Assembly (NCBI GenBank): GCA_016789865.1
Contig: JAEUPC010000103.1
Coordinates: 1 to 37,883, forward strand
DNA length: 37,883 nt
Reading direction: 5' to 3'
Origin: Rubrivivax sp.
Lineage (GTDB): Bacteria; Pseudomonadota; Gammaproteobacteria; Burkholderiales; Burkholderiaceae_C
This document shows, piece after piece, positions 10,010 through 35,870 of this stretch. A program made the translations under genes and the position numbers. Below the pieces are notes generated by a model, which ran no database searches, had not been told where the DNA came from, and worked only from the letters and a program-made list of their open reading frames with translations. Position 1 is the first letter of the stretch. Each line of letters starts with the position of its first letter.

Positions 10010-10034
10010 GAGGCGACCCCGGGGCGCCGTGCCG

Positions 10035-20886: not shown

Positions 20887-20928
20887 GGGCGGGCAAGGAT
20901 ATCGATGAGGCGCGAACTGTAAGTGCTT

Positions 20929-20937
20929 TGCTACGAT
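20929..20937 (+). promoter_or_regulatory. Extended -10 promoter for the aminotransferase gene (possibly leaderless)
   Basis: TG-c-TACGAT matches an extended -10 element. The hexamer at 20932-20937 would put transcription start at 20944, the A of the ATG. No -35 element and no ribosome-binding site were seen. This is a pattern match only. Confidence 0.35.
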
Positions 20938-20943
20938 GCTTCG

Positions 20944-22227
20944 ATGAACCGCGTGCCATTGCCCAAGACGACGCCGCTGCCCGAGCCCGCCTCGGCGCTG
21001 GCCGAACTGAACCCGGCGCCACGCCTGCTGATGGGGCCGGGCCCGATCAATGCCGACCCGCGCGTGCTGCGCGCCATGAGCACCCCGCTGATCGGACAGT
21101 TCGACCCGCAGTTCAGACTCATGATGCGCGAGACGATGGCGCTCTATCGCCAGGTCTTCGACACACGCAACGACTGGACGCTGATCGCCGACGGCACCGC
21201 GCGCGCGGCCATCGAGATGGTCATGCAGTCGGCCATCGAGCCCGGCGACCGCGTGCTGGTGGGCAGTTTCGGCCGCTTCGGCCACCTACTCGAAGAGATC
21301 GCGCTGCGCTGCGGCGCCGAGGTGCACATCGTGCAGGCCGAGTGGGGCACGGTGCTCGACCTGGCGCAGGTCGAGGCGGCGCTGAAGGCCTCGTCGCCCA
21401 AGCTGGTGGCCGTGTGCCAGGGCGACACCTCCACCACCATGCTGCAGCCGCTGGAGGGGCTCGGTGAGTTGTGCCACCGCCACGGCGCGCTGCTGCAGGT
21501 GGACGCCACCGCGTCGCTGGGCGGCGCGCCGCTGCCGGCCGATGCCTGGGCCGTGGACGCCGTCACCGCGGGCCTGCAGAAGTGCCTGGGCGGGCCCTCG
21601 GGGGCTTCGCCGCTGACCCTGTCGGACGCCATGGCGCAGCGCATCTACCACCGTCGCCACATCGAGCGCGGCCTGCAGCCGGCCGACTACCGGCCCGGCG
21701 CCGGCACGCGCATCGCCAGCAACTACATGGACATGGCGATGGTCATGGACTACTGGAGCGACGCGGGCCTGAACCACCACACCGAGGCCACCACGATGCT
21801 CTATGCGGCGCGCGAGTGCGGCCGCATCGCGGTGCAAGAGGGCCTGCGGGGGATGTTCGCGCGCCACGAGCGCGTCTCGCGCGCGGTGCTCGCCGGGGTG
21901 CGCGCCATGCGGCTCGAGGTGTACGGTGACCCGGCGCACAAGATGCCCAACGTCACCGGCGTGCGCGTGCCCGAGGGCATCTCCGCCGACAAGGTGCGCC
22001 TGGCGCTGCTGAACGACTTCAACGTCGAGATCGGCACCAGCTTCGGCCCGCTGCACGGCAAGGTGTGGCGCCTGGGCGCCATGGGCTACAACGCGCGGCC
22101 CGACGCCGTGTACACCACCTTGGCCGCGCTGGAGACCGTGCTGGCCGCCGAGGGCCACCGCTTCGCGCGCGGCGCCGGGGTGGATGCGGCCTACGCGTCG
22201 TTCAAGAGCGAAGCGGCAGCGGCGTGA
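20944..22227 (+). CDS. pucG: PLP-dependent aminotransferase, (S)-ureidoglycine-glyoxylate aminotransferase-like (PucG/HpxJ)
   Basis: A 427-residue class V aminotransferase of the alanine-glyoxylate family. It opens with RLLMGPGPINADPRVLRAM, the glyoxylate-aminotransferase hallmark. The PLP lysine is K213 in AGLQKCLGGPSG. PucG and HpxJ transfer the amino group of (S)-ureidoglycine to glyoxylate, giving oxalurate and glycine. Oxalurate is the substrate expected for the divergent allFGH genes, and this context is the main reason for preferring PucG over alanine- or serine-glyoxylate aminotransferase. ATG 20944 was chosen; an in-frame GTG at 20923 is possible. The gene ends in a tandem repeat encoding SEAAAA. 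Confidence 0.78.
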   Translation: MNRVPLPKTTPLPEPASALAELNPAPRLLMGPGPINADPRVLRAMSTPLIGQFDPQFRLMMRETMALYRQVFDTRNDWTLIADGTARAAIEMVMQSAIEPGDRVLVGSFGRFGHLLEEIALRCGAEVHIVQAEWGTVLDLAQVEAALKASSPKLVAVCQGDTSTTMLQPLEGLGELCHRHGALLQVDATASLGGAPLPADAWAVDAVTAGLQKCLGGPSGASPLTLSDAMAQRIYHRRHIERGLQPADYRPGAGTRIASNYMDMAMVMDYWSDAGLNHHTEATTMLYAARECGRIAVQEGLRGMFARHERVSRAVLAGVRAMRLEVYGDPAHKMPNVTGVRVPEGISADKVRLALLNDFNVEIGTSFGPLHGKVWRLGAMGYNARPDAVYTTLAALETVLAAEGHRFARGAGVDAAYASFKSEAAAA

Positions 22228-22275
22228 GCGAATCAGCAGCGGCGTGAGCGAAGCGGCAACGGCGGCGTGAGCGAG
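22207..22275. repeat. Tandem repeat spanning the stop codon of the aminotransferase gene
   Basis: Three units occur in a row: agcgaagcggcagcggcgtg (22207-22226), a copy with two to three changes (22227-22246), and a 23-base copy (22247-22269), then the start of a fourth. The first unit encodes the last residues of the aminotransferase; each unit boundary recreates a TGA. Confidence 0.8.
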
Positions 22276-22314
22276 CCGCGCCGGCGCCCTGGCGCAGCAG
22301 TGATTGGTCGCGAG

Positions 22315-22337
22315 CCGGGGCGGAAGGTGAGCCCCGG
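22315..22337. terminator. Possible bidirectional stem-loop between convergent genes
   Basis: CCGGGGC and GCCCCGG form a 7-bp stem with a nine-base loop between the aminotransferase stop and the stop of the PepSY gene, which reads the other way. There is no T-run. It is called only from structure and its convergent position. Confidence 0.4.
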
Positions 22338-22353
22338 GGCAACCCGGTTGCCT

Positions 22354-23088
22354 TCAGCGCCTGAGCACGCCACCCCTGGCTCGCAACACGCGCCGCACCG
22401 CCAGCACGGCGAGCACCGCGCCGGTCAGCACCAGCGCCAGCGCAGCCAGGCTGGCGGCCTTCACCAGCGGGTGGCTGAAGTCGTCGCCGGCGGTGTAGTC
22501 CATCAGGTGCAGGCGCCAGAAGAAGTCGTACAGCACCCAGGCGTCGTTGCGCATGGCCACGAGCTCGCCGCTGCGCGCATCGAAGTACAGGCGCGTGCCG
22601 ACGAAGTCGTCGAAGCTGGCGCGCCACAGGTCGGTGCGCTCACCGGCCTCGCGCACGATCAATGCACGCGGCGGCACCGAGGGCAGCCGCTGCACGGCCA
22701 GGGCCGTGCCCGCATCGCCCAGGTAGTGGCGGCGCGCAAAGGCGCGCATCGCCGCTTCGTCCGGCGGGGCGAGCGCCTGGCCGTCCGCGCCGACCCAGGT
22801 CTCGCCCTTGGCGTGGCGCAGCTTCAGCGCCGGCCCGGCGGGCGTGAGCACGCTCGTCACGGCCAGCACCGATGCGCCCGGGTGGGCCTCGAGGTGCCGG
22901 GCCACCTGCCGGGCCCAGTCGGCAGGAAGTGGCTGCTGCGGGCGCCGCACATGCTCCTCGCCCTTCACCCAGGCCTTGAACGGCAGCCAGGTGAACACGA
23001 ACCCACCGGCCACCCAGGCCAGCACCTGGATCGCGACGACCCAGGCCAGCCAGCGGTGCCAGCGGAAGAAGCGCGGGCCGAGGCTCAC
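22354..23088 (-). CDS. PepSY-associated membrane protein
   Basis: A 244-residue inner-membrane protein with one transmembrane segment near the N-terminus (about 14-35, after FFRWHRWLAW) and one near the C-terminus (about 208-230). A periplasmic domain of PepSY type lies between; LYFDARSGELVAMRNDAWVLYDFFWRLHLMD-like features (Tyr-Phe-Asp-x-x-x-Gly, then WRLHxMDY) are typical. Such proteins occur in iron/siderophore reductases and peptidase-inhibitor-like membrane proteins, but the role here is unknown. The start is GTG 23088, which overlaps the stop of the PdxA-family gene as GTGA. The overlap suggests co-translation, although no functional link between the two is obvious. Confidence 0.75.
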   Translation of the reverse strand: MSLGPRFFRWHRWLAWVVAIQVLAWVAGGFVFTWLPFKAWVKGEEHVRRPQQPLPADWARQVARHLEAHPGASVLAVTSVLTPAGPALKLRHAKGETWVGADGQALAPPDEAAMRAFARRHYLGDAGTALAVQRLPSVPPRALIVREAGERTDLWRASFDDFVGTRLYFDARSGELVAMRNDAWVLYDFFWRLHLMDYTAGDDFSHPLVKAASLAALALVLTGAVLAVLAVRRVLRARGGVLRR

Positions 23089-24098
23089 CGGCCCGCGGGC
23101 ACCGCCGAGGCCATGCGCACGCCCAGCTCGAACGCCGCGCGCAGCCCGTCGATGCGCGCCACCCCCTGGCCGGCGATGTCGAAGGCGCTGCCGCTGGCCG
23201 GCGTCGTCACCGGCACCGGCAGGCCGCCGTGCAGCGTGACGCCGCGCTCGAAGCCCATCAGCTTCATGGCGATCTGGCCCTGGTCGTGGTACATCGAGAC
23301 GACGGCGTCGTAGTCGCCGCGGCGCGCGGCGATGAACACGGTGTCGGGAGAATAAGGCCCGCGCGCGTCCAGCCCCTCGGCCTGCAGCGCGCGCACCGCC
23401 GGCTCGATGACCTCGATCTCCTCCATGCCGATGCTGCCGCCGTCGCCCGCGTGCGGGTTGAGGCCCGTGACGGCGATGCGCGGCCGCGCCACACCGGCGC
23501 GCTGCAGCGCCGTCTGGATGATCAGCACCGCGTCGCGCACCGCCCGGCCGGTGATGAGCGCGGCCACATCCTTCAGCGGCACGTGCGAAGTCACGCGCGA
23601 GGTCCACAGGCCGCCGGTGATGTTGAACTCGCACACGAAACCCGGCACCGCCAGCCGCTCGGCGAGGTAGCGCAGCTCGTCTTCCTGCGTCATGCCGGCC
23701 AGGCGCAGGCTGTGCTTGTTCAGCGGCGCGAAGACGATGCCTTGCACGTGCCCGGCCCGCGCCGCGGCCGAGGCCAGCTCCAGCGCGCGCAGCGCGGCGC
23801 GCCCGGCTTCGGTGGTGGACTGCGCCACCGGCGGCAGCGTGCCGCGCAGCGCATCGTCGGCCAGCCACGCGAGGGTGTCGCCGGCCGGCCCGGGCGCGCG
23901 TGCCTCGGCCGCCGCCACGCGCCGCACCGGCAGCTTCACGCCGGCGATGCGCTCGCCCTCGGCCAGCACCACCGGGTCGGCGATCAGCAGCACCTCGGCC
24001 GCGGCGCGAACCGCGGGCTCGGCCAGCAGCTTCACGCCCATCTCGGGGCCCACGCCGCCGACGTCACCGAGCAGAAACGCAATGCGAGGCTGCTTCAT
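23085..24098 (-). CDS. PdxA-family NAD-dependent dehydrogenase
   Basis: A 337-residue member of the 4-hydroxythreonine-4-phosphate dehydrogenase family. Metal-binding histidines are visible in SHVPLKD, NPHAGDGG and MYHDQGQI. Besides the PdxA of vitamin B6 synthesis, the family includes catabolic PdxA2 (4-phosphoerythronate/4-phosphothreonate) and the terephthalate dihydrodiol dehydrogenase TphB. Here it sits with a Bug receptor and a LysR regulator rather than with ksgA/surA, the usual neighbours of biosynthetic pdxA, so a catabolic role is more likely. ATG 24098 is preceded by a GAGGG ribosome-binding site. The substrate is unknown. Confidence 0.85.
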   Translation of the reverse strand: MKQPRIAFLLGDVGGVGPEMGVKLLAEPAVRAAAEVLLIADPVVLAEGERIAGVKLPVRRVAAAEARAPGPAGDTLAWLADDALRGTLPPVAQSTTEAGRAALRALELASAAARAGHVQGIVFAPLNKHSLRLAGMTQEDELRYLAERLAVPGFVCEFNITGGLWTSRVTSHVPLKDVAALITGRAVRDAVLIIQTALQRAGVARPRIAVTGLNPHAGDGGSIGMEEIEVIEPAVRALQAEGLDARGPYSPDTVFIAARRGDYDAVVSMYHDQGQIAMKLMGFERGVTLHGGLPVPVTTPASGSAFDIAGQGVARIDGLRAAFELGVRMASAVPAGR

Positions 24099-24164
24099 CG
24101 AACAACCCTCAGGCCGGCACAGCCCAGGGCCTTGCGCGAATCCGGCCTTGCCGGTCCGCGGCAA

Positions 24165-24208
24165 GAGCCCCCTCGGGGGGCAGCGAGCGCCAGCGAGCGT
24201 GGGGGCTC
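24165..24208. repeat. GC-rich interrupted inverted repeat (REP-like element)
   Basis: GAGCCCCC (24165-24172) and GGGGGCTC (24201-24208) form an 8-bp outer stem. Inside it are a CCCCC-TCG-GGGGG hairpin and a direct repeat of cagcgagcg. It lies between the Bug receptor stop and the PdxA-family start. Similar hairpins with a CCCCTCGGGGGGCAGCGA core are, as I recall, scattered between genes in Burkholderiales. It may act as a terminator or RNA-stability element. Confidence 0.55.
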
Positions 24209-24212
24209 CATG

Positions 24213-25229
24213 TCATTGCCCTTCGGCCTTGATGCCGGCATCGCGGATGAGGCGGCCGTAGCGCTCGAACTCGCTCTTGTTCATCTCGGCGAACTGCTCA
24301 GGCGTCATCAGCTGGATGTCGCCGCCCAGGCCCTTGATGCGCGCGGCCACGTCGGACAGCTTGAGCGCGGCGGTGAGCTCGGCGGCCAGCCGCTCGACCA
24401 CCGGCTTGGGCGTGCCGGCGGTCACGTACATCGCGTACCAGGTCTGGATGTCGGCGCCGCTCACGCCCTGCTCGGCCAGCGTGGGCACGTCGGGCAGCTC
24501 GGCGCTGCGCTTCGCGGTGGTGATGGCCAGCGGCCGGAACTTGCCGCCCTTGATCTGGCCCATCGCCGAACTGGTGGTGTCGAACATCATCTCCACCTGG
24601 CCGCCGATGATGTCGATGTGCGCCTGCGAGCTGCCCTTGTAGGGCACGTGGATGGCCTTGGTCTTCGTCGAGAGGTTGAAGGCCTCGCCGACGATGTGCT
24701 GCGTGCTGCCGATGCCCGAGCTCGCGTACTTCAGCGCACCAGGCTTGGCCTGCATGTCGGCCAGCAGCTCCTTCACGCTCTTGTAGGGCGAGGTGGCGCT
24801 GACCACCAGCACATTGGGCACCACGGCCACCAGGCCGACCGGCTGCAGGTCTTTCAGCGGGTCGAACTTCAGCCGGATGAGGTGCGGCGCCACCGCCTGG
24901 CCGGTGTTGGTGGCCAGGAGCAGCGTGGTGCCGTCGGGCGTGGCCTTGGCGGCCAGCTCGGCGGCGATGGTGTTGCTGGCGCCCGGGCGGTTCTCGATGA
25001 CGATGCTCTGCTTGAGCGCCGGGCCCATCTTCTCGGCCAGCAGCCGCGCCAGGATGTCGGTGCCGCCGCCGGCGTTGGCGCCGACCATGATGCGCAGCGG
25101 CTTGTCGGGCCAGGCCTGCGCGAGGGCCGGTGCGCCGGCGGCGCCCAGCAGCAGCGCGGCGGCCAGCGTGTGCAGACAGGTGCGGCGGCTGCGTGCAGCG
25201 GGCTGGTGACCTGCGGGGGATGAATTCAT
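24213..25229 (-). CDS. Bug-type tripartite tricarboxylate transporter receptor, periplasmic
   Basis: A 338-residue extracytoplasmic solute receptor. A twin-Arg-free signal peptide ends in ALAQA before WPDKPLRIMV, the standard mature start of Bug proteins. The family segments VGANAGGGTDILAR, ENRPGASNTIAAE and the late NKSEFERYGRLIRDAGIKAEG are visible. Bug receptors bind carboxylates for TctAB-type transporters and are often encoded apart from the membrane subunits, as here. ATG 25229 has an AGGAG ribosome-binding site. It is divergent from a LysR regulator gene and lies upstream of the PdxA-family and PepSY genes, so these three may be one regulated unit. Confidence 0.92.
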   Translation of the reverse strand: MNSSPAGHQPAARSRRTCLHTLAAALLLGAAGAPALAQAWPDKPLRIMVGANAGGGTDILARLLAEKMGPALKQSIVIENRPGASNTIAAELAAKATPDGTTLLLATNTGQAVAPHLIRLKFDPLKDLQPVGLVAVVPNVLVVSATSPYKSVKELLADMQAKPGALKYASSGIGSTQHIVGEAFNLSTKTKAIHVPYKGSSQAHIDIIGGQVEMMFDTTSSAMGQIKGGKFRPLAITTAKRSAELPDVPTLAEQGVSGADIQTWYAMYVTAGTPKPVVERLAAELTAALKLSDVAARIKGLGGDIQLMTPEQFAEMNKSEFERYGRLIRDAGIKAEGQ

Positions 25230-25375
25230 GCGTGTCTCCTGTCGTTCAGGCCCTTGGGGGCGGAGGTCGCCGGGCCATCTTGGCGTGGGGGTGGGCGGGA
25301 TGCCTGCCCTCGGCACCATGCCGCGCGGCCCGGAATCGTGCGCACGAGGCTACGCGGCCGGGCCATGCCTTTCCA

Positions 25376-27382: not shown

Positions 27383-28042
27383 TCATCGACCCTGCACCTG
27401 CGCCAACAGCCCTTCAACCCGCGCCTGCGCGATGCGCAGCGATGCCGGCGGCCCAGCCAGATACAGGCGGCCGCTGGCGCCGATCATGCTGCACTCCACC
27501 AGCGTCAGATCGGGTGCCGCCTTCTCGGCCTCGTTGCCCATGTAGGCGCCGTACAGGGCCGGGGCCACCTCCATCAGCAGCAGGCTCTGCCCGGGCAGCA
27601 CCATGTTGGCCTGCCGCGTGCGGTTGATCAGCACGGCGTGCTGGTCGGTGATGTCCTCGATGATGTCGGAGTACAGCAACTGCGGGCGGAGTTGCTCGGA
27701 CGCCTTGGCAGACAGGCCGTCCAGGATGGCCTGGCGCGCACGTTCCAACGCCGCTTCGTCGCGGCCGTGCAGCTCCAGCACGCCGAACTGGCGCTCGACG
27801 GCCAGGATGCCCGGTTCGAGCCCGGGTTCCTCCTTGAGCGCTCGGTCGACGATGCGTTGGATGGCCAGCCCCGGCGCAATCTCGATCAGCAGCGCATGCA
27901 TGCCCTGCATGGCCACGTAGCCGCGTGCGCCCACCGGAGAACTCATCCATGAGGCGAACTGGGGCTGCAGATCGGCGAGCGTCAGGCAGACGCGCAACTC
28001 CGCCGCCGGCTTGGCTGGCGGGTTCTTGGAAGATGTGGCCAT
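27383..28042 (-). CDS. BMC-T tandem-domain microcompartment shell protein (copy 1)
   Basis: A 219-residue trimeric shell protein made of two fused BMC domains. The first covers about residues 20-110 (LADLQPQFASWM, ALLIEIAPGLAIQRIVDRALK, VERQFGVLELHG) and the second about 125-215 (INRTRQANMVLPGQSLLLMEVAPALYGAYMGNEAEKAAP, SGRLYLAG). Trimers of such proteins form pseudohexameric tiles, often with a larger central pore. It is clearly paralogous to the other BMC-T in this operon (both share the LQPQ, IE(I/V)APG, VERQFG, NEAEK and GRLYLAG segments). It is the last shell gene of the operon, 15 bases after the BMC-H stop. Confidence 0.93.
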   Translation of the reverse strand: MATSSKNPPAKPAAELRVCLTLADLQPQFASWMSSPVGARGYVAMQGMHALLIEIAPGLAIQRIVDRALKEEPGLEPGILAVERQFGVLELHGRDEAALERARQAILDGLSAKASEQLRPQLLYSDIIEDITDQHAVLINRTRQANMVLPGQSLLLMEVAPALYGAYMGNEAEKAAPDLTLVECSMIGASGRLYLAGPPASLRIAQARVEGLLAQVQGR

Positions 28043-28057
28043 CGATCGCTGCCGCGC

Positions 28058-28330
28058 TTACTTTCCGTCGAAAGCCTTGACGACATCGGTGTGCGGGCGC
28101 GGGATCACGTGCACAGCCACCACTTCGCCAACGGCCTTGGCGGCCTCGGCGCCAGCGTCGGTGGCAGCCTTGACGGCGCCGACGTCACCGGTGACGGTGA
28201 TGGCGACGAGGCCGCCGCCGACTTCCTTGCGGCCGGCCAGCGTGACGTTGGCGGCCTTGACCATCGCGTCGGCGGCGGCATAGGCGGCGACGTAGCCCCT
28301 GGTTTCGATCATTCCGATGGCTTGGGACAT
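28058..28330 (-). CDS. BMC-H hexameric microcompartment shell protein
   Basis: A 90-residue single-domain shell protein of the PduA/CcmK type. The canonical opening [20 protein letters not shown], the pore loop GGG at residues 38-40 (KEVGGGLV), and [19 protein letters not shown] are all present. Hexamers tile the facets of the shell, and the pore passes small polar metabolites. The longer frame upstream is not used: ATG 28330 has a ggagaa ribosome-binding site and begins the conserved fold. The 92-base spacer before it is the longest inside the metabolic part of the operon and, with its own strong site, may allow high expression of this bulk component. No gene was seen in the spacer. Confidence 0.97.
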
Positions 28331-28422
28331 GGTGTGTTCTCCGTGGGTGGGTGGTGGGTTCGGGATCAATCCGACGCTCGCGCCGGTGCGGGAAAGGGGA
28401 CTTGGCCGTCGCGATGCCCGGC

Positions 28423-28692
28423 CTACTTCGGCAAGGTGGGTGTGCTCTTCTCGTCGAGCACGCCGATGATCAACGCGTCGACGACCACGCGCTGCTGCGC
28501 GGGCGCGAACCACCAGGCGGCCGGGGCGCCGATGGTGATGAGCACGCGGTCGCCTTCGCCGCAGCCCAGCGGGTCATAGCAGACGATGACGTCCTTCGGG
28601 CAGTCGAGCTGCACCTCGATCAGCGCACCCGCAGGCAGCTCCGGCAGGCGCTTGCTGGACCAAAGGCGGCCGACGACAGTGGCGGTCTTCAT
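28423..28692 (-). CDS. BMC-P (EutN/CcmL) pentameric vertex protein
   Basis: An 89-residue EutN/CcmL family protein. Typical features are the opening [18 protein letters not shown], the [29 protein letters not shown] core and the late [12 protein letters not shown] strand. Pentamers cap the vertices of the icosahedral shell, so its presence means a closed shell can form. There is one copy only; many loci have two or three. It starts three bases after the stop of the Cys-rich protein gene, suggesting translational coupling. Confidence 0.97.
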
Positions 28693-28695
28693 CGT

Positions 28696-29226
28696 TCAGG
28701 ACTCCTTGGTGGGATGCACGGCGATGCCGCGTTGCCGCAGCGCGTCGCGCGCCAGCGGCGTGAGCACGGTTCGCGGCGTGGTGCCGATGAGGCGGCAATC
28801 CGCAGGCAGCGCCTTGATGTCACGTTCGGTGATGCAGCCGCGCAGCAGCGGCGTGGCCGTGGCCGCAGCGAAGTGGTTGCCCTGCGCAGGCGCGCAGCGG
28901 CAGGGCTCGCCGCGAGCACAGTCGTCGCAACAGGCGGGCTGGGCAGGCGCGGCCGAGCCTGGAGCGGCGGCCGGCGCCACCATCGCCGGGGCAACGCTCA
29001 GCTCGAAGCGAAGCAGCCCGGTGGCGTTGGCCGCGGCGAGTGCGGGGCTGGCAGCCACGCGGCGGATCAGCTCGGCCAGCACATCCAAGTCACCTGCGCC
29101 GGACAGGCGCAGCGGCACACAGACGCCTTTCGCGCGGCCTGTGGCAGCTTCGTCGCCGCTGCGCGCCGTGCGCGGGCGGCGGGCCAGCAGCTCGCGCACC
29201 TGCGCGCGGAAGTCCTCGGCGCTCAT
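28696..29226 (-). CDS. Unrecognised Cys-rich BMC-locus protein with EP-like N-terminus
   Basis: A 176-residue protein I cannot assign. Residues 1-18 (MSAEDFRAQVRELLARRP) form a short amphipathic helix followed by a disordered charged linker, as in encapsulation peptides. Residues 34-77 look folded. An Ala/Pro linker leads to a cysteine cluster at C99, C100, C103, C109 and C111, which could bind zinc or an Fe-S cluster. The C-terminal part (CITERDIKALPADC ... VLTPLARDALRQRGIAV) resembles the short LTPSARxxLxxR-type segment found in EutT/EutQ-like and other microcompartment proteins; this comparison is from memory. Its start overlaps the BMC-T stop as ATGA and it precedes BMC-P by three bases. 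It may be a scaffold or a redox/cofactor protein of the lumen. Confidence 0.7.
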   Translation of the reverse strand: MSAEDFRAQVRELLARRPRTARSGDEAATGRAKGVCVPLRLSGAGDLDVLAELIRRVAASPALAAANATGLLRFELSVAPAMVAPAAAPGSAAPAQPACCDDCARGEPCRCAPAQGNHFAAATATPLLRGCITERDIKALPADCRLIGTTPRTVLTPLARDALRQRGIAVHPTKES

Positions 29227-29840
29227 GGCGCTGCCCTCGCGAGGTCGCGCAGCGTGGCCTCGGCCACGGCGGCGGCAGTTCGCACATCGGCCTCGGTGCC
29301 CGCCAGGTACAGGCGCCCGGCGGCGCCCATGAAGCGGCAGTCGACCAGCTTGACGTTGGCGTTCTTCTCGGCCTCGTTGGCCGCCAGCAGCGCATACGAC
29401 GACGAGGTCATCTCCATGATGTAGAGCGACTCGCCGGGCAGCAGCATGCTGCCGGACTTGCTGCGGTTGACGAGGAAGGCGTGGTAGCCGTCGACGCGGT
29501 CGACGATCTTGGAGGCGAGGATCTCGGGCTTCACCGCCGAGGCCGGCGTGGCGCCGATCGCCTGCAGCACGGCGGCACCGGCGGACTGCACCGAGGCGGC
29601 GTACTTCGAATGGAACTCGAGGTAGCCGAACTGCCGCTCGACGACCAGGTTGCCGGGCTTCACGTCGTCGTGCTTGAGCGCCACGTCGGTGAGCCACTCG
29701 ATGTCCATGCCCGGCGCGACCTCGATCACCAGTGCGGCGTCGTTGTGGCGCGGCAGGTAGCCGCGGGCCGTGCTGCCCAGCAGGCACATCAGCTGCGGCT
29801 GCAGGCGGTCGAGGAAGATGTAGCTGCGCAGGGTGGGCAT
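29223..29840 (-). CDS. BMC-T tandem-domain microcompartment shell protein (copy 2)
   Basis: A 205-residue two-domain BMC shell protein. Domain 1 holds LDRLQPQLMCLLGSTARGYL and VIEVAPGMDIEWLTDVALK; domain 2 holds FLVNRSKSGSMLLPGESLYI, NEAEKNANVKLVDCRFMG and AAGRLYLAG. It shares the same segments as the BMC-T at 27383-28042 but lacks that protein's N-terminal extension. The upstream frame is a shadow of the dehydrogenase gene; ATG 29840 lies 16 bases after the dehydrogenase stop. Two different BMC-T genes with a single BMC-H gene suggest a shell rich in large-pore tiles or mixed trimers. Confidence 0.95.
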   Translation of the reverse strand: MPTLRSYIFLDRLQPQLMCLLGSTARGYLPRHNDAALVIEVAPGMDIEWLTDVALKHDDVKPGNLVVERQFGYLEFHSKYAASVQSAGAAVLQAIGATPASAVKPEILASKIVDRVDGYHAFLVNRSKSGSMLLPGESLYIMEMTSSSYALLAANEAEKNANVKLVDCRFMGAAGRLYLAGTEADVRTAAAVAEATLRDLARAAP

Positions 29841-29856
29841 GGGTGATGACGCGCGC

Positions 29857-31344
29857 TCAGTGCGCACGCTCCAGTTCTTCGGCCAGCACGCGCAGCAGCT
29901 CGCGCGTGACTTCGGCAGCGGGTGTGCCGGCCACGGCGCGATTCGTCGTGGCCACCGCCGCGGGCGAGCCCGTGCCGGCACCGCGCGTCGCGAGCCACCC
30001 TCCGGGCAGCGGAAAGGCCACGCGCTTCCAGTTCACCAGCAGGTCGGGGCCGACATTGCTGTCGACCGAGCTGCGCCCCGCAAACCCGGTGCCGATGGTG
30101 AAGGTGTGGGCGAGGCCCGTCTCGCCACCCGTCGAGCCGAACACGGTGCTGCCGTTGACGATGACGCGGTAGTAGTCGAGCGCCGCGCCCCAGGCTACCG
30201 CCTGTTCGGCGTCGCCGGTGTGGATGGCCGCGGTGTGCCCGCCGCCGCCGTGGGCCAGCATCATGCGGGCGACATCGACGGCCTCGTCGAAGCCGTCGAC
30301 CACCACCGCCGTCAGCAGCGGCGAGAGCTTCTCGCGCAGCAGCGGGTGGCCGGATTCGGGCTGCATCAACGGCAGCACCAGCGCGGCGATCTCGGGGCCG
30401 ACGCGCACGCCGGCACCGGCGGCGATCTCGGCGGCCGGGCGCCCCACCACCTTGGCATTGAAGCGGCCCGAAGGCCAGGCATGGGCCTGCACGCGCGCCG
30501 CTTCGTCATCGCTGCAGACGTGGGCACCGCAGGCGGCGACGGCATCGCGCAGTGCCGCGGCCACGGGGCGATCGACCAGCACCACGCTGGGCGCCGAGCA
30601 GGGGCTGCCGTGGTCGAAGTTCTTGTCGCTGATCAGCACCGGTGCCAGCGCGGCGATGTCGGCGCTGCGGTCGACGTACACCGGCACGTTGCCGGCTCCC
30701 ACGCCGATGGTCGGGTTGCCCGAGGCGTAGGCCGCGCGCACCATCGGCGTGCCGCCGGTGGCGACGATGAGGTCGCAGCGCGCGTCGCGCATCAGCGCCC
30801 CGGTGGCCTCCACCGTGGGGCGCGAGAGCATCTGCACCGCGTGTTCCGGCGCACCGGCCCGCCGCGCCGCCGCTTCGATCTCGCGCACCGCGTCGGCGCA
30901 GCAATGCAGCGCCACCGGGTGCGGGCTGAAGACGATGGCGTTGCGCGTCATCAGCGCCATCAGGGCCTTGAAGAGGATGGTGGCCACCGGCGAGGTGGAG
31001 TTCGACAGGCCGACGATGACACCGGCCGGGCGGCCGATCTCGACCAGGCGCAGCGCGTCGTTGCGGCGCACGCCGCCCAGCGGCACGCCGCGCCAGCCGT
31101 CCAGCGTGGCCTGGCAGGCCATGCGGTTCTTCATCACCTTGTCGGCGACCTTGCCGATGCGCGTCTCGCGCACGGCCCACTCGGCATAGAACTCGGCCTT
31201 GGGCAGCAGCGCGGCGGCCACGGCCTCGGCCAGTTGCCAGGCCTGCTCGGGCGTGCACCGCGCCAGCGCATCGGCGGCGACGCGGGCGCGCTGCAGCAGG
31301 TCGCGCGCTTCCTGCAGGGCGGCGAGATCGTGGTCCATCACCAT
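29857..31344 (-). CDS. CoA-acylating aldehyde dehydrogenase (EutE/PduP/SauS type) with C-terminal encapsulation peptide
   Basis: A 495-residue acylating aldehyde dehydrogenase that should turn an aldehyde, NAD and CoA into acyl-CoA. The catalytic cysteine is C249 in NFDHGSPCSAPSVVLVD, matching the FDN-x-x-x-C motif of EutE/PduP. ETRIGKVADKVMKN and GVGAGNVPVYVD are also typical. The fold ends near VNWKRVAFPLP; a Gly/Ala/Thr-rich linker follows, then an amphipathic helix at 477-494 (VTRELLRVLAEELERA), a textbook encapsulation peptide. ATG 31344 was chosen; GTG 31350 and ATG 31338 are alternatives. It begins just after the dioxygenase stop. It is the core luminal enzyme of the predicted microcompartment; the aldehyde is not known. 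SauS-type sulfoacetaldehyde dehydrogenases belong to the same family. Confidence 0.93.
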   Translation of the reverse strand: MVMDHDLAALQEARDLLQRARVAADALARCTPEQAWQLAEAVAAALLPKAEFYAEWAVRETRIGKVADKVMKNRMACQATLDGWRGVPLGGVRRNDALRLVEIGRPAGVIVGLSNSTSPVATILFKALMALMTRNAIVFSPHPVALHCCADAVREIEAAARRAGAPEHAVQMLSRPTVEATGALMRDARCDLIVATGGTPMVRAAYASGNPTIGVGAGNVPVYVDRSADIAALAPVLISDKNFDHGSPCSAPSVVLVDRPVAAALRDAVAACGAHVCSDDEAARVQAHAWPSGRFNAKVVGRPAAEIAAGAGVRVGPEIAALVLPLMQPESGHPLLREKLSPLLTAVVVDGFDEAVDVARMMLAHGGGGHTAAIHTGDAEQAVAWGAALDYYRVIVNGSTVFGSTGGETGLAHTFTIGTGFAGRSSVDSNVGPDLLVNWKRVAFPLPGGWLATRGAGTGSPAAVATTNRAVAGTPAAEVTRELLRVLAEELERAH

Positions 31345-31350
31345 GCGCAC

Positions 31351-32457
31351 TCAGCGCTGCGTGGCGCGGGCGGCCACGGCATCGAGGTCGACGCTGTCCA
31401 GCGCGTCGAACAGCGCATCGACCGCGGCGCGTTCCTTGGCCGAGGCGCCGGCCAGGCGCGCGCTGTCGAGCACGCTGCGCAGGCCGCTGCCGCCCGTGGC
31501 CGAGGCGGTGGCCTTCGCCGTGCCAGCGAGCGTGGGCAAGAAGTTGCCGGCGGTGACGCGGTTGCCCGCGCGGTAGTGCGGCGCATAGTCGAACACTGCG
31601 TAGTGCTGCGTCTGGCTGTTGTCCCACAGCACCACCGAGTCCTTCTCCCAGCGGAAGCGCACCATGAACTCGGGCTTCTTGATCCACTCGTAGAGCATGT
31701 TCAGCAGCGCTTCGCCGAGGTCCATGTGGATGCCCAGCAGCCGCTTGGTCCAGATGGAATTGACGAACAGGCAGCGGCGCCCATTGAACGGGTGCGTGAT
31801 CACCGCCGGGTGGATGGCCGACGGGTTGTCCTTGATCATCTTGCACTCGCGCTCGGCCAGCGCGTCGTTCATCTCCGCGGCCGACATCATCGAATTCATC
31901 ATCGGCCCGGCAGCGCCTTGCTTCTTCGCCGCCGTGGCCTGGCGCTGGGCCAGCTTCTCGTAGGCGTTGATGCGGCGGAAGTGGAACGGCAGGTCGTGCT
32001 CGGCCTGCAAGCCCAGCAGCAGGTTCTGCAAAGGCGCGCCGAGCGCGTCGAAGGCCGCTGCGGTGCTGGCCCACAGGGTGTCGCCGCCGGAGGGAGGCAG
32101 GTCGGTCAGCCGCAGCGCGCAGACCAGCGACGGCTTCCTGCGGAAGGTCACGTCGGTGTGCCAGCGGTCGGTCTCGGGCGACTCGTGGCCTTCGTTGGCG
32201 ATCATCTGCACCTCGGGGTGGCCCTCGATGTGCGGGAAGAACTCGTGCCGCTCGACCTCGCCGAATTGGCGCGCCAGGCGGATGTGCGACTCGGGCGTCA
32301 ACGGCTGCTTGCGGAAGAACACCACGCAGTGCTTCCACAGTGCGGCCTGGATCTCCTCGTACACGTCTTCGCTGCGCACGCGGTTGAGGTCGACGCCGCT
32401 GATCATGGCGCCGATGGTCGGCGTCAGCGGCTCGACCTGGATGTGTCGGTAGTTCAT
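31351..32457 (-). CDS. TauD/TfdA family 2-oxoglutarate/Fe(II) dioxygenase with C-terminal extension
   Basis: A 368-residue dioxygenase; E. coli TauD has 283. It starts like TauD (LTPTIGAMISGVDL). The iron triad is H100-x-D102 and H285 (WDNSQTQHYA), and 2-oxoglutarate would be held by T127 and R296. H71 and R300 line up, from memory, with the TauD residues that bind the taurine sulfonate; Y73 of TauD is replaced by Phe. The reaction hydroxylates a substrate carbon and typically releases an aldehyde. An extra segment (about 175-200) and a C-terminal tail (306-368) are unusual: an Ala/Thr/Gly linker, then an amphipathic helix at 342-364 resembling an encapsulation peptide. It lies between the transporter and dehydrogenase genes in one operon. 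The substrate is unproven; a sulfonate or ether carboxylate is possible. Confidence 0.9.
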   Translation of the reverse strand: MNYRHIQVEPLTPTIGAMISGVDLNRVRSEDVYEEIQAALWKHCVVFFRKQPLTPESHIRLARQFGEVERHEFFPHIEGHPEVQMIANEGHESPETDRWHTDVTFRRKPSLVCALRLTDLPPSGGDTLWASTAAAFDALGAPLQNLLLGLQAEHDLPFHFRRINAYEKLAQRQATAAKKQGAAGPMMNSMMSAAEMNDALAERECKMIKDNPSAIHPAVITHPFNGRRCLFVNSIWTKRLLGIHMDLGEALLNMLYEWIKKPEFMVRFRWEKDSVVLWDNSQTQHYAVFDYAPHYRAGNRVTAGNFLPTLAGTAKATASATGGSGLRSVLDSARLAGASAKERAAVDALFDALDSVDLDAVAARATQR

Positions 32458-32470
32458 GCGGGGGTGCTCC

Positions 32471-33244
32471 TCACTGCCAGTGCAGCAGGCGTTTCTCGAG
32501 CCAGGTCATGAAGCGCACGATCGCCACGCCCAGCAGGGCCAGCACGAGCAGCAGCGCCATGACGCCATTGATGTCGAAGGTGGATCCGAGGTAGGCCAGC
32601 GTCTGGCCCAGGCCCTTCTCGCTGGCGATGATCTCGGCGCCGACCACGCCCAAGAGCGCGTAGATCAGGCCCAGCCGCAGCCCGGAGAAGATCACCGGCA
32701 CCGCGCCGGGCAAGGTAACCTGGAAGAACGTGGTGCTGGCGCGGGCGCCGAGCGTGCGGCACAGCGTGACGTGGTCCTGGCTGACCCCGCGGATACCCGC
32801 CACGGTGGCCGACAGCACGATGAAGAAGGTCAGCGTGAAGCCCAGCGCGATCTTGCTGCCCAGGCCGAGTCCGAACCACAGGATGAACAGCGGCGCCAGC
32901 GCGATGCGCGGCATCACGTTGAAGGCGTTGAAGTAGGGGTCGGCAAAGCGCTCCAGCGCCGGCCAGCGCACGAACATCAGGCCCACCGCGAACGCGGCCA
33001 CGCTGCCGAGCACGAAGGACGACATCACGCCGGCCATGGTCCAGCCGAGGTCGGTCCACAGCTTGGCCTTGCCGGCGTTCTCCCACAGGAACCTGGCCAC
33101 GCCGCTGGGCTGGCCGAAGAACGTCGGATCGAGCCATTTCAGCGTCACGGCCAGTTCGCCCAGGCCCAGCATCGCGGCAATGAACACGGCGTGCAGGGCG
33201 CCGAAGCGCCAGCGGTCGGCTCGGCGGCTCGGCTCAACCTTCAT
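32471..33244 (-). CDS. ABC transporter permease, SsuC/TauC type
   Basis: A 257-residue inner-membrane permease with about six hydrophobic segments. The cytoplasmic coupling loop (RTLGARASTTFFQVTLPGAVPVIFSGLRLGL) carries the EAA-like Gly-Ala ... Leu-Pro-x-Ala pattern of the aliphatic sulfonate/nitrate/taurine importer family. ATG 33244 overlaps the ATPase gene by 11 bases, showing an operon. The stop is 13 bases before the dioxygenase start. Together with the ATPase and the periplasmic receptor it forms a complete importer. Confidence 0.93.
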   Translation of the reverse strand: MKVEPSRRADRWRFGALHAVFIAAMLGLGELAVTLKWLDPTFFGQPSGVARFLWENAGKAKLWTDLGWTMAGVMSSFVLGSVAAFAVGLMFVRWPALERFADPYFNAFNVMPRIALAPLFILWFGLGLGSKIALGFTLTFFIVLSATVAGIRGVSQDHVTLCRTLGARASTTFFQVTLPGAVPVIFSGLRLGLIYALLGVVGAEIIASEKGLGQTLAYLGSTFDINGVMALLLVLALLGVAIVRFMTWLEKRLLHWQ

Positions 33245-34019
33245 GGCGCACCCAGCCCGATTCGAGGTGGGACCACAGCTGCGTGTACAGCTCGTGGAAG
33301 TGCGGGTCCTTCTGCAACTCGCGGATCGAGCGCGGCCGCGGCAGGTCGATCGGCACGTCGGCCACGATGCGCCCCGGCCGCGACGACATCACCACCACGC
33401 GGTCGGACACCGCCACCGCCTCGGCCAGATCGTGGGTCACGAACAGCACCGTGTGGCGGTGCTGCTGGCACAGGCGCAGCAGCAGGTCTTCGAGCTGCAG
33501 CTTGGTCTGCGCGTCGAGCGCGCCGAAGGGCTCGTCCATCAGCAGCAGCGTGGCGTCCATCGCGAACGTGCGCGCCAGCGCCGTGCGCTGGCGCATGCCG
33601 TGCGACAAGGCCTTGGGCAGCGCCTCTTCATGACCGGCCAGCCCCACTTCGGCCAGCATCGCGCGGGCGCGGGCACGGCGCTCGTCGGCGGACACGCCGC
33701 GCACCTGCAACCCGAAGGCCGCGTTGTCCAGCGCCGTGCGCCACGGCAGCAGGCTGTCGCGCGCCAGCATGTAGGCCACCTGCGGGTGGCCCTCGCTGGG
33801 CGGGCCGCCAACGACGCGGATCGAGCCCTCGCCGCGGTGCGGCACCAGGCCCGCGCACAGGTTCAACAACGTCGTCTTGCCGCAGCCGCTGGGCCCGACC
33901 AACGAGACGAATTCGCCCTCGGCCACATGCAACGTGATGTCGGCAAGCACCGAGGTCCTGCCGTCGAAGCTCAGGTGCAGGCCGTCGACGGCGATGGCCG
34001 CGCCTTGGCTTCGCGACAT
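33234..34019 (-). CDS. ABC transporter ATP-binding protein, SsuB/TauB type
   Basis: A 261-residue ATPase. Walker A is GPSGCGKTT (42-50), the signature is LSHGMRQR (138-145) and Walker B is LLLMDEPFGALD (159-169), followed by the switch histidine in FVTHDL. The signature has His where LSGGMRQR is usual, a variant likely still active. It energises the permease encoded immediately downstream with an 11-base overlap. It follows the receptor gene by 54 bases. Confidence 0.95.
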   Translation of the reverse strand: MSRSQGAAIAVDGLHLSFDGRTSVLADITLHVAEGEFVSLVGPSGCGKTTLLNLCAGLVPHRGEGSIRVVGGPPSEGHPQVAYMLARDSLLPWRTALDNAAFGLQVRGVSADERRARARAMLAEVGLAGHEEALPKALSHGMRQRTALARTFAMDATLLLMDEPFGALDAQTKLQLEDLLLRLCQQHRHTVLFVTHDLAEAVAVSDRVVVMSSRPGRIVADVPIDLPRPRSIRELQKDPHFHELYTQLWSHLESGWVRHEG

Positions 34020-34073
34020 GACGATCGGGGTCGGCTCGGGGCGAGTGTGGGACGCGAGTGCAGGACGGCCGAC

Positions 34074-35060
34074 TCAGCGCGCGAGCAGCTTGCTCGTGTC
34101 CACCAGCTTGTCGATCTGCCCGCCGCGGTGCATGTACTCGGCGATGTGCTGCAGCGCCTTGGGGTCGACATCGAACTTGAAGCTCTTGAGGTTGTTGCGC
34201 AGCGACACCTCGAGCACCTTGTCGCCGCCCGGGGCGTTGATCTTGAACGTGTCTGTGGCGATCTTGAGCATGGCGGAGAAGTTCGCCGGGTTCTGCGCCA
34301 GCGCCTCGGCCTCGCGCAGGGCACTCTCGAAGCCCTTCAGCGCGGTCGCGTTCTTGGCCAGGTAGTCGGCTTTTGCGACCAGCACGACGCCGGCACCCGA
34401 GGTCTTGATGATGTCGGCCGGCCCGACGCCGTTGCGCGGATCGACGACGATCCGGCAGGCCTTGCTGACCTCGCAGAAACCGTCCATCGGGGAGAACAGC
34501 ACGAGGCCGTCGATCTGCTTGTTGGCGATCGCCGGGAAGGCGGTGTTCGGTGCGCCGACGGCCACGATGGTCACGTCGTCGGCCTTCATGCCGGCGCCCT
34601 TGAGCATCTCCACCAGCTGGAACTCGGCGCCGCTGCCGCGCGCCGTGACACCGATCTTCTTGCCCTTGAAGTCCTGCATGACGGCCGGGTAGCCCTTGGC
34701 CGCGTTGGGCGTCTCCAGCCCAGCGCCGGCCATCAGGAAGAACACCGGCTCGCGCGCCGCGCTGCCCAGCACCTTGAGGTCGGCGCCCTTGTTGACGGCC
34801 TGGATCAGGACCTCGGGCGGCGGGAAGGCCACTTCGATGTCGCCCGCCAGCAAGGTCTGCATGCCCAGCGGTGCCTGCGGGATGGTGCGCAGCTCGCACT
34901 TGACGCCGTGCTTCTCACACAGGCCGTTGGCGTTGGCCACGCGGACCAGGAAATTGCCCAGGCCTGGGTAGTCTTGGATGCGCAGGGTGGTCTGGGCAAG
35001 GGTCGGGCCAGCCAGCACGAGGGCCAGTGAGGCGATCGCAAGGCGCAGGGGATGACGCAT
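34074..35060 (-). CDS. ABC transporter periplasmic substrate-binding protein, SsuA/NMT1-like
   Basis: A 328-residue secreted receptor of the sulfonate/nitrate/taurine/NMT1 class. The signal peptide (about 1-22) ends in PTLAQ, before TTLRIQDYPG. Family traits are the early segment with an oxyanion-binding style loop (MQTLLAGDIEVAFPPPEVLIQA) and FKGKKIGVTARGSGAEFQLVEML. The ligand cannot be read from sequence. AAGGAAG precedes ATG 35060. It is the first gene of the operon that continues through the dioxygenase, the dehydrogenase and the shell genes, so its ligand is probably the substrate of the microcompartment pathway. Confidence 0.9.
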   Translation of the reverse strand: MRHPLRLAIASLALVLAGPTLAQTTLRIQDYPGLGNFLVRVANANGLCEKHGVKCELRTIPQAPLGMQTLLAGDIEVAFPPPEVLIQAVNKGADLKVLGSAAREPVFFLMAGAGLETPNAAKGYPAVMQDFKGKKIGVTARGSGAEFQLVEMLKGAGMKADDVTIVAVGAPNTAFPAIANKQIDGLVLFSPMDGFCEVSKACRIVVDPRNGVGPADIIKTSGAGVVLVAKADYLAKNATALKGFESALREAEALAQNPANFSAMLKIATDTFKINAPGGDKVLEVSLRNNLKSFKFDVDPKALQHIAEYMHRGGQIDKLVDTSKLLAR

Positions 35061-35111
35061 CGTGTCTTCCTTGAATCTTGTGCCGCATCAATGCGTGCGG
35101 ACGACAATTGG

Positions 35112-35117
35112 ATTAAA
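35112..35117 (-). promoter_or_regulatory. Predicted -10 element of the transporter/BMC operon
   Basis: On the minus strand this reads TTTAAT, five of six matches to TATAAT. It implies a start site near 35105 and a leader of about 45 bases before the receptor ATG. There is no good -35, as expected for an activator-dependent promoter. Confidence 0.5.
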
Positions 35118-35137
35118 GGCGCGTCGGCCCGCCGAAA

Positions 35138-35155
35138 TTGCTGCGTACGCGACAA
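35138..35155. promoter_or_regulatory. 18-bp Crp/Fnr-type dyad, candidate operator
   Basis: TTGctGCGTACGCgaCAA has 14 of 18 symmetric bases, with TTG/CAA arms and a perfect GCGTACGC centre. Its centre (35146.5) is 41.5 bases upstream of the start site implied by the -10 at 35112-35117, the class II position for Crp/Fnr activators. It also ends only seven bases before the regulator's own GTG, allowing autoregulation. Confidence 0.55.
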
Positions 35156-35162
35156 TCCTAGG

Positions 35163-35870
35163 GTGAGCCCCCTCCGCCGCCTCACCGACCCGTCCGCCGA
35201 CTCTTCTGCATACCGCCTGGACCTGCTGCAGGCGCTTCCGGCATCGGAGTCGGAAGCCCTGCGCAAGCTGGGTGTTGTCCACCGCTATCGCGATGGCGCG
35301 ACGCTTGCGCAGCGAGGCCAGCCAATGAGGTCCGTGCTGGTGCTGACCAAGGGTCGATTGCGGGCGGTGACCAGCCTGATCGATGGCCGCGAGCACCTGA
35401 TGCGCTGGGTCGAGCCCGGTGAGGCCGTCGGCGTGGCCTCGGTTCTCGCGCAATTGCCATTCCAAGTAGACCTGATCGCAAGCGGCCCCTGCGAGGTACG
35501 GTCGATCCCGGGGGAGGCCTTCGTGGACGTGATGCGCCGCAATTCCGCGGCCGGCCTGGTCGTGGCCAGGCTTCTTGCCGCACGGCTGAGCGAGGTGTAT
35601 GACCATGTCGTGGCGCAGGCGCAGGGCCGGCTGCAAGACCGTGTCCAAGCTTCCCTTCGACACCTCGCGGCCGAAAACGGCGAGCAACTCACCGATGGTC
35701 GGGTGCGGTTGCGCGTCTCGCATCAAGATGTCTCGGACGCCGTCGGTGCGTCGCGACAGCGGGTCAACGGAGCGCTGCACAGTCTGCAGCGCGCGGGCTA
35801 CGTGGTGCTGGGCTACCGGCAGATCACGCTCGCCATGCCGCCACCAAAGAGGCGCAGGACTGGCGGCTGA
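35163..35870 (+). CDS. Crp/Fnr family transcriptional regulator
   Basis: A 235-residue regulator. The N-terminal cyclic-nucleotide-binding-type beta-barrel (about 15-120) is followed by the dimer helix and a winged helix-turn-helix (VSHQDVSDAVGASRQRVNGALHSL-like, with recognition helix SRQRVNGAL). It lacks the Fnr cysteine set and the Arg-Ser-Ala phosphate-binding motif of Crp, so the effector is not cAMP or an Fe-S cluster in the usual way. GTG 35163 was chosen because the frame upstream runs through the divergent promoter; ATG 35091 is an alternative. It is divergent from the importer/dioxygenase/BMC operon and is its likely activator. Confidence 0.88.
   Translation: MSPLRRLTDPSADSSAYRLDLLQALPASESEALRKLGVVHRYRDGATLAQRGQPMRSVLVLTKGRLRAVTSLIDGREHLMRWVEPGEAVGVASVLAQLPFQVDLIASGPCEVRSIPGEAFVDVMRRNSAAGLVVARLLAARLSEVYDHVVAQAQGRLQDRVQASLRHLAAENGEQLTDGRVRLRVSHQDVSDAVGASRQRVNGALHSLQRAGYVVLGYRQITLAMPPPKRRRTGG

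Follow-up and report, generated by a model that had tools for sequence, protein, structure and literature searches.

To our knowledge, the metabolosomes described so far are fed by lyases, dehydratases, aldolases or aminotransferases, to which the ring-cleaving enzymes of the ARO type can be added. One of them, the Rhodococcus and Mycobacterium microcompartment (RMM, also AAUM), is associated with amino-alcohol or aminoacetone use and places an aldehyde dehydrogenase (AldDH) ahead of its bacterial microcompartment (BMC) shell genes in the order AldDH–BMC-T–X–BMC-P–BMC-H–BMC-T (loci L067, L068 and L171–L173 and plasmid pRHL2 of strain RHA1). We found the same order in a 37,883-base contig of Rubrivivax sp. 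(JAEUPC010000103.1; the whole contig is hereafter the window), which belongs to a metagenome-type assembly of 4.59 Mb and 77% completeness. Ten tightly spaced minus-strand genes (27383–35060), recognized from the list of open reading frames (ORFs) and family scans, run here from an SsuABC-type importer through a TauD-family dioxygenase and a CoA-acylating AldDH to the shell (Table 1). Whereas RMM has a class III aminotransferase, a kinase and an SDR, this operon has TauD; whereas RMM has a permease or other transporters and a GntR regulator, the TauD loci have the importer and a CRP- or LysR-type regulator. 'TauD' and 'SsuABC' denote families here; none of the dioxygenase, AldDH and importer proteins reaches any curated NCBIfam cut-off listed for it. 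We think it rather likely that the operon encodes an aerobic metabolosome that combines an RMM-type shell and AldDH with a TauD-family dioxygenase in place of the aminotransferase, acting on what is probably a non-taurine sulfonate or a sulfate ester.

Two other described microcompartments resemble this arrangement in part. According to the accessible parts of PMC8217296 and PMC10470539, the ARO microcompartment of Actinobacteria likewise has an O2-using dioxygenase as its signature enzyme, but that enzyme is a ring-cleaving extradiol dioxygenase (pfam02900) and not a PF02668 protein, its shell consists of BMC-P and BMC-H only whereas ours includes two BMC-T proteins, and its AldDH lies outside the CoA-dependent family and lacks an encapsulation peptide. 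The isethionate sulfite-lyase (IslAB) microcompartment of Bilophila shares the route from a sulfonate through an aldehyde to an acylating AldDH in a shell, but it relies on an anaerobic glycyl-radical enzyme, a phosphotransacetylase and different shell genes (PMC8667426, accessible parts); no glycyl-radical sulfite-lyase gene is present in the operon. An earlier note on this DNA, made from its letters alone, had called the operon a candidate oxygenase-fed metabolosome and knew of no described shell fed by a 2-oxoglutarate/O2-dependent dioxygenase. Given the ARO dioxygenase, as presented in the accessible parts of the same two papers, feeding by an oxygenase is not in itself new; feeding by a 2-oxoglutarate-dependent one is. 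We found no description of a TauD or 2-oxoglutarate-dependent BMC in the literature within reach, which did not extend to Supplementary Data 2 of PMC8217296, the 2021 catalogue, in which all 68 types are drawn and the Limnohabitans loci introduced below may be listed under another name; the words 'TauD', 'dioxygenase' and 'sulfonate' are absent from the main text of PMC8217296 as far as it was accessible. The feeding of an RMM-type shell by a 2-oxoglutarate-dependent oxygenase seems to be new.

Structural matches and phylogenies both tie the shell and AldDH to RMM. Among solved structures, those of RMM's MSM0275, MSM0273 and MSM0271 match the window's shell proteins best, and for BMC-H MSM0272 ranks second. 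In the AldDH tree, the 12 rows from TauD loci form a single clade (support 100/99) that joins the RMM AldDHs and that of one further locus, L069, at 100/99; L069 falls with the RMM rows, which have support of 50/0 as one group. The second BMC-T proteins of TauD and RMM loci join at 100/100 against another BMC type, the TauD-locus rows alone being supported at 83/69. Both sets of AldDHs share a C-terminal tail in the alignment, and Cys251 is invariant in the four aligned rows, at the place of the 5j78 Cys. Judged by its sequence, the AldDH would qualify as an acylating enzyme with an encapsulation peptide. Protein X also appears, by place and alignment, to correspond to the small protein of RMM; its motif of the CC-x2-C-x4-C-x-C type is found in the eight aligned rows of the window's own layout (layout A) and is absent from two rows of a second layout and three of RMM, and a metal-binding role for it is our guess.

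The RMM loci of Mycolicibacterium wolinskyi (L067) and Marmoricola (L068) hold an aminotransferase, AldDH (46 and 42%), BMC-T (60 and 58%), BMC-P, BMC-H, a further BMC-T, a kinase and an SDR; X is called in the former and not in the latter, and L067 has a GntR gene and an amino-acid permease upstream. The same module lies on R. jostii RHA1 pRHL2, with the aminotransferase after it, and three proteobacterial loci found through paired BMC-T matches (L171–L173) read class III aminotransferase–AldDH–BMC-T–X–BMC-P–BMC-H–BMC-T, with no TauD match. Because gene order, shell set and AldDH kinship are those of RMM, we conclude that the shell and AldDH are an RMM-type module in which TauD occupies the aminotransferase slot. 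The suggestion in the earlier note of a new BMC class does not survive this comparison, as RMM has both shell set and AldDH with an aminotransferase and without TauD; what we describe is a shell of a known kind paired with a new signature enzyme, and it falls short of a wholly new class. The same kinship would be expected of an ordinary amino-alcohol or aminoacetone RMM in which TauD is an accessory. This is very improbable, given that none of the RMM class III aminotransferase, kinase and SDR is found among the window's operon genes or, in a form like those of L067, in the second-layout locus L142 (another such locus, L143, shows a weak SDR-family match of 33%, 3 kb beyond the importer), that the importer type differs, and that the TauD-locus AldDHs form a separate clade. 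In the RHA1 locus itself (L174, 9001–14490), BMC-T, X, BMC-P and BMC-H are tandemly duplicated, each carrying one and the same protein accession in both copies.

The arrangement is conserved. A search of 84,980 species genomes with the AldDH alignment returned at least 48 loci, and TauD directly precedes AldDH and the shell genes in at least 24 distinct genomes, namely the window, 19 close records and four of the second layout (L037, L038, L142 and L143), with L036 and L058 counted once as one genome. The close records are 19 of the 20 best loci (L047–L063, L065 and L066), in which AldDH is 64–67% identical to that of the window and the order CRP / SsuA–SsuB–SsuC–TauD–AldDH–BMC-T–X–BMC-P–BMC-H–BMC-T is kept, with genes absent solely where a contig ends; the contig of the twentieth, L064, starts only 96 bases ahead of AldDH and does not reach the place of tauD. 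These records are named Limnohabitans, Rhodoferax, Comamonadaceae or Burkholderiales, apart from one labelled Akkermansia: L062, titled as an Akkermansia muciniphila metagenome-assembled genome, holds a Burkholderiales-type operon (AldDH 64%) and is probably mislabelled or a mixed bin. The second layout, from the window's family, reads tauD–AldDH–BMC-T–(X)–BMC-P–BMC-H–BMC-T, where tauD is separated from a divergent ssuABC by a LysR-type gene and an MFS gene; its TauD and AldDH are 46–47% and 50% identical to the window's. Because the order recurs in 19 other records and dN/dS per gene is 0.00–0.23 (four pairs of relatives and nine genes, BMC-H of one pair lacking), the arrangement goes beyond chance. 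The earlier note had named shell and dehydrogenase genes without the dioxygenase as the observation that would count against its idea; among the matches listed, tauD is present in all 24 readable relatives that have this AldDH clade and the shell.

Within the window's family, a BMC-domain match occurs in 21 of 299 genomes, four of which are of this kind, and a TauD match at 1e-90 in 7 of 399, six of this kind (the window included in both counts); the seventh, G082, is shell-less at the locus. The window's assembly, at its 77% completeness, has no other BMC-domain matches, and the other BMC-T match among 60 sampled genomes of the genus (G724) belongs to a different BMC type. In the BMC-T surveys of the order, class and phylum, the loci examined were those with paired first and second BMC-T matches (G1053, G846 and G1164) and four from the order survey; 59 of the 62 matching genomes of the class survey (the window's own not counted) lie outside that set, and their matches are presumably mostly carboxysome loci. 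Among flanking families, the CRP gene recurs at 19 loci, its antisense shadow at 13 and all others at no more than 8 of 21. An enoyl-CoA hydratase, considered as an extra pathway enzyme and present at five loci (directly downstream in three), was left out.

One feature of the dioxygenase accompanies the shell. In all 25 BMC-linked TauD rows (24 genomes), the catalytic domain is followed by a linker of variable sequence and a conserved C-terminal tail, and the tail is absent from E. coli TauD, from the three nearest BMC-less relatives (L125, L126 and L144) and from 25 more distant family members, among which genomic surroundings were looked at for L072 alone. A profile of the tail, run on 3196 ORFs from 16 sources, retrieves seven at ≤4.7e-20, all of them BMC-linked TauDs, with the next at 0.47. 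Conservation is 0.90–0.91 in the catalytic regions, 0.84 in the tail, 0.68 in the linker and 0.51 in the insert, and tail dN/dS is 0.047, 0.044, 0.070 and 0.095 in four pairs. A structural model from 43 varied rows (pLDDT 88.9) predicts a disordered linker (residues 314–322, pLDDT under 50) and tail helices at 325–328, 332–336, 340–354 and 358–367, with pLDDT 78–86 over residues 331–360; a first model from 22 near-identical sequences (pLDDT 38.5) was set aside. Since this tail is specific to TauD and accompanies the shell, TauD is likely encapsulated. The tail might alternatively bind a partner or mediate oligomerization with no role in encapsulation, as could be argued from the model, which gives a small helical unit and not one helix, from an amphipathicity no greater than that of shuffled sequences and from a profile comparison in which it is unlike the AldDH tail. 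We consider this rather unlikely, since the closest shell-less relatives lack the tail, and its position and linker-plus-helix build match those of encapsulation peptides. In an acidobacterial locus (L072, 9992–14268; Acidobacteriia UBA6623), consecutive genes near a BMC-H match encode a long-tailed AldDH, a class III aminotransferase and a TauD-family protein without the tail, which makes a second case, unrelated to the first, of TauD beside a BMC AldDH; the other two acidobacterial loci (L071 and L073) have no TauD match.

Two of the tailless relatives lie in genomes of the window's own genus, G316 (locus L125) and G307. Both genomes hold a CRP gene, ssuA (71%), ssuB (83%), ssuC (87%) and a tailless tauD (69–70%), after which comes a PhnW/AGXT-related class V aminotransferase in place of AldDH and shell (the shell-less importer–tauD loci are L125 and L126); neither genome has an RMM-type BMC-T match. 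In G082 (L144), TauD (53%) is likewise tailless and has a CRP-type neighbour, and the 19.9 kb examined contain no shell gene. In the TauD tree, the three tailless rows group with the window and Limnohabitans (15 rows, 100/98), and the second layout is separate (4 rows, 100/99). Given the outgroups used, this topology would mean that shell and tail were either lost once or gained twice, but the branching within the 15 rows is not settled and, viewed without a root, the BMC-linked rows still form one side of a branch (71/77). At 12267–13287 of L125, in G316, a second CRP-type gene adjoins a stretch matching only about 68 TauD residues, a remnant of a second such cluster.

Such loci would also fit a cytosolic TauD that only scavenges sulfur, the AldDH and shell handling an aldehyde from elsewhere and sharing no more than regulation with it: L125 and L126 pair the importer with a tailless TauD and have neither shell nor AldDH, and in L144 TauD has only the CRP-type neighbour. 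We regard this as improbable. TauD holds the RMM signature-enzyme slot in 24 of 24 genomes, its tail accompanies the shell, and the importer varies among the close loci whereas TauD and AldDH do not. SsuA falls into two groups, 47–51% identical to the window's in 13 of 19 close loci and 63–66% in the other 6; TauD (63–66%) and AldDH (64–67%) show no such groups, and TauD is therefore the part locked to the shell. The idea of one importer–dioxygenase–shell unit, put forward in the earlier note, accordingly holds for the dioxygenase, AldDH and shell, which stay together in 24 genomes and two layouts, and less for the importer, of which the close loci have two sequence variants and which the second layout places away from tauD. 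The shell-less gene set of the same genus is a natural control that makes the metabolosome idea directly testable, and the named Limnohabitans strains among the hosts mean that test organisms exist.

The active site fits an anionic substrate other than taurine. The operon TauD resembles the taurine dioxygenases of E. coli and P. putida in fold, iron ligands, the 2-oxoglutarate-binding Arg and the sulfonate-binding His70 and Arg270; it differs in overall sequence (38% identity), in a changed amine pocket, in an insert at about residues 161–210 and in the tail, and, unlike taurine dioxygenase, its operon shows no link to sulfur-starvation genes. His99, Asp101, His255, Arg266, His70 and Arg270 of the E. 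coli enzyme are kept in 16 of 16 BMC-linked rows; the first three are the iron ligands, and Arg266 presumably holds 2-oxoglutarate. Tyr73 is replaced by Phe, Asn95 by Thr and Phe206 by Trp in all 16; Ser158 is His in 10 and Ala in 6, Asp94 gives way to Glu in 12 and stays in 4, and Val102 stays in 13 and is Cys in 3. The shell-less L125 and L126 enzymes have the layout-A pattern, and two ordinary TauDs aligned alongside (L099 and L100) keep Asp94, Asn95, Ser158 and Tyr73. With this amine pocket and its curated score (Table 1), the enzyme does not qualify as a taurine dioxygenase. Because the sulfonate-binding residues are kept and the amine-binding residues changed, a sulfonate-like anion other than taurine would be the likeliest substrate on sequence grounds, and a sulfonate is plausible. 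Related enzymes with carboxylate or sulfate substrates make use of these residues as well.

The same machinery could act on something else, TauD cleaving an ether-linked or other non-sulfur anion, or a sulfate ester, to an aldehyde. We give this a real but minority chance. The best solved relatives by sequence after the taurine dioxygenases are PlaO1 and phenoxypropionate dioxygenases, and by fold PlaO1, RdpA and AAD-1 follow E. coli TauD (TM 0.93 to 6edh); the importer's binding protein is no clear SsuA, and the amine-side changes run through 16 of 16 rows. Against this, the models closest to the importer's ATPase and permease are of the taurine/sulfonate and SaoAP types, and His70 and Arg270 are those that bind taurine (PMC9304159, accessible parts, the source also of the other active-site roles except that of Arg266).

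We infer encapsulation, the coupling of the two enzymes and the substrate from these features, as follows. The importer would take up a small anion, most probably a non-taurine sulfonate or a sulfate ester, and the tail would carry TauD into the shell. There TauD, in the signature-enzyme slot, is predicted to make an aldehyde: with Fe(II), O2 and 2-oxoglutarate it would hydroxylate the carbon adjoining the leaving group, and the product would break down to the aldehyde (with sulfite where a sulfonate is cleaved), succinate and CO2. AldDH, encapsulated alongside, would convert the aldehyde to acyl-CoA with NAD+ and CoA while the shell retained it, the two BMC-T proteins being likely gates for larger metabolites. 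In its more specific form, which we put forward tentatively as somewhat short of an even chance, this is an aerobic organosulfonate-degrading organelle of Limnohabitans and other Burkholderiales, in which a tailed oxygenase frees sulfite and aldehyde inside an RMM-type shell; with a sulfonate as substrate it would parallel, under aerobic conditions, the glycyl-radical isethionate (IslAB) microcompartment. If the proposal is true, a shell can host chemistry with O2, 2-oxoglutarate and Fe(II), the RMM module of shell and AldDH is a plug-in unit accepting different signature enzymes, and a cytosolic enzyme family entered an organelle by gaining a tail.

A CRP-family gene lies divergently at the operon head in all 19 close loci, and a palindrome TTGAY-N4-RTCAA, which we take to be an FNR-type box, is found 63–74 bp before ssuA with 10 of 10 letters in 16 of them. 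Perfect matches number 0 in 377,467 background positions, and the palindrome is absent in L125 and L126.

Several observations weigh against the proposed metabolosome. The palindrome has nine letters in L059 (−64) and L065 (−112), is missing from L048 and is absent from the window, where 8 of 10 letters occur at −31. Within the window's genus the operon is present in 1 of 60 sampled genomes, the window's own, and two same-genus genomes have importer and TauD without a shell. The hydrophobic moment of the TauD tail does not exceed that of its own shuffles (seven tails, p 0.05–0.70), that of the AldDH tail does so in part (seven tails, p 0.0075–0.26), and AldDH tail dN/dS is uninformative (0.67, 0.33, 0 and undefined). 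No phosphotransacylase or alcohol dehydrogenase is encoded in the operon, the rest of the incomplete genome not having been searched; RMM, too, lacks these enzymes for CoA and NAD+ recycling (PMC4207490, accessible parts). The substrate is a guess, because importer, TauD and AldDH all score under the curated cut-offs.

Table 1. Genes and features of the operon and its divergent regulator in the window.
Feature	Coordinates	Strand	Basis and remarks
CRP/FNR-family regulator gene, divergent	35052..35870	+	cNMP_binding, HTH_Crp_2; longest ORF, true start probably further in
SsuA/NMT1-type substrate-binding protein	34074..35060	-	PF09084 6.8e-18; SsuA_fam 82.7 bits, cut-off 163.5; nearest solved structure 3qsl (putative exported protein)
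SsuB/TauB-like ABC transporter ATPase	33234..34019	-	PF00005; TauB model 213 bits, cut-off 357
SsuC/TauC-like ABC transporter permease	32471..33244	-	PF00528
TauD-family Fe(II)/2-oxoglutarate dioxygenase	31351..32457	-	PF02668 1.1e-59; 265.7 bits vs taurine dioxygenase cut-off 313
TauD C-terminal tail, residues ~325–368, after linker 314–322	31351..31485	-	Alignments, profile, dN/dS, model
CoA-acylating AldDH with encapsulation-peptide-like C-terminal tail	29857..31350	-	PF00171; EutE/AdhE/SauS-like, under all cut-offs
BMC-T, CcmP-like, MSM0275-like	29223..29840	-	PF00936; CcmP model 1.1e-62; 5l39 MSM0275 8.6e-73
Cys-rich protein X	28696..29226	-	No Pfam/NCBIfam match; aligns with unnamed RMM protein at same place
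BMC-P (EutN/CcmL), MSM0273-like	28423..28692	-	PF03319 2.3e-14; sole solved match 5l37 MSM0273 1.8e-15
BMC-H, MSM0272-like	28058..28330	-	PF00936 6.4e-27; 5l38 MSM0272 1.4e-33, second after tandem-fusion construct
BMC-T, CcmP-like, MSM0271-like	27383..28042	-	CcmP model 3.2e-47, under equivalog cut-off; 5suh MSM0271 1e-66; no Pfam match at 0.001

BMC-H, BMC-P and BMC-T genes, as expected of a metabolosome, are thus all present at one locus, and coordinates, Pfam and NCBIfam agree with the earlier note on the ten packed genes, their order and their families. Neighbouring genes are separated by 54 bp (SsuA–SsuB), 13 bp (SsuC–TauD), 0 bp (TauD–AldDH), 16 bp (AldDH–BMC-T), 3 bp (Cys-rich protein–BMC-P), 92 bp (BMC-P–BMC-H) and 15 bp (BMC-H–BMC-T), and overlap by 11 bp at SsuB/SsuC and 4 bp at BMC-T/Cys-rich protein. 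We infer a single transcript. A scan found no sigma-70-type promoter and four terminator-like sites (3.3 expected), one of them on the coding strand, within SsuC; this neither backs nor breaks the operon reading.

Elsewhere in the window, a class V aminotransferase, a PdxA-family protein and a TctC-type receptor are encoded close together (20923–25319), upstream of a LysR-type gene; that aminotransferase (20923–22227) was ruled out as a link to the one in L125, the two being 23% identical. A gene for a Haem-NO-binding domain is followed by a GGDEF-EAL gene at 9476–11606. Plasmid RPME01 of Methylibium petroleiphilum PM1 (L175) carries another BMC type, with EutN, EutM, AldDH, EutJ and BMC-T together with malate and alcohol dehydrogenases and pyruvate phosphate dikinase, and AldDH, BMC-H and BMC-T matches like those of L175 occur in G046, G192, G199, G267 and G724.

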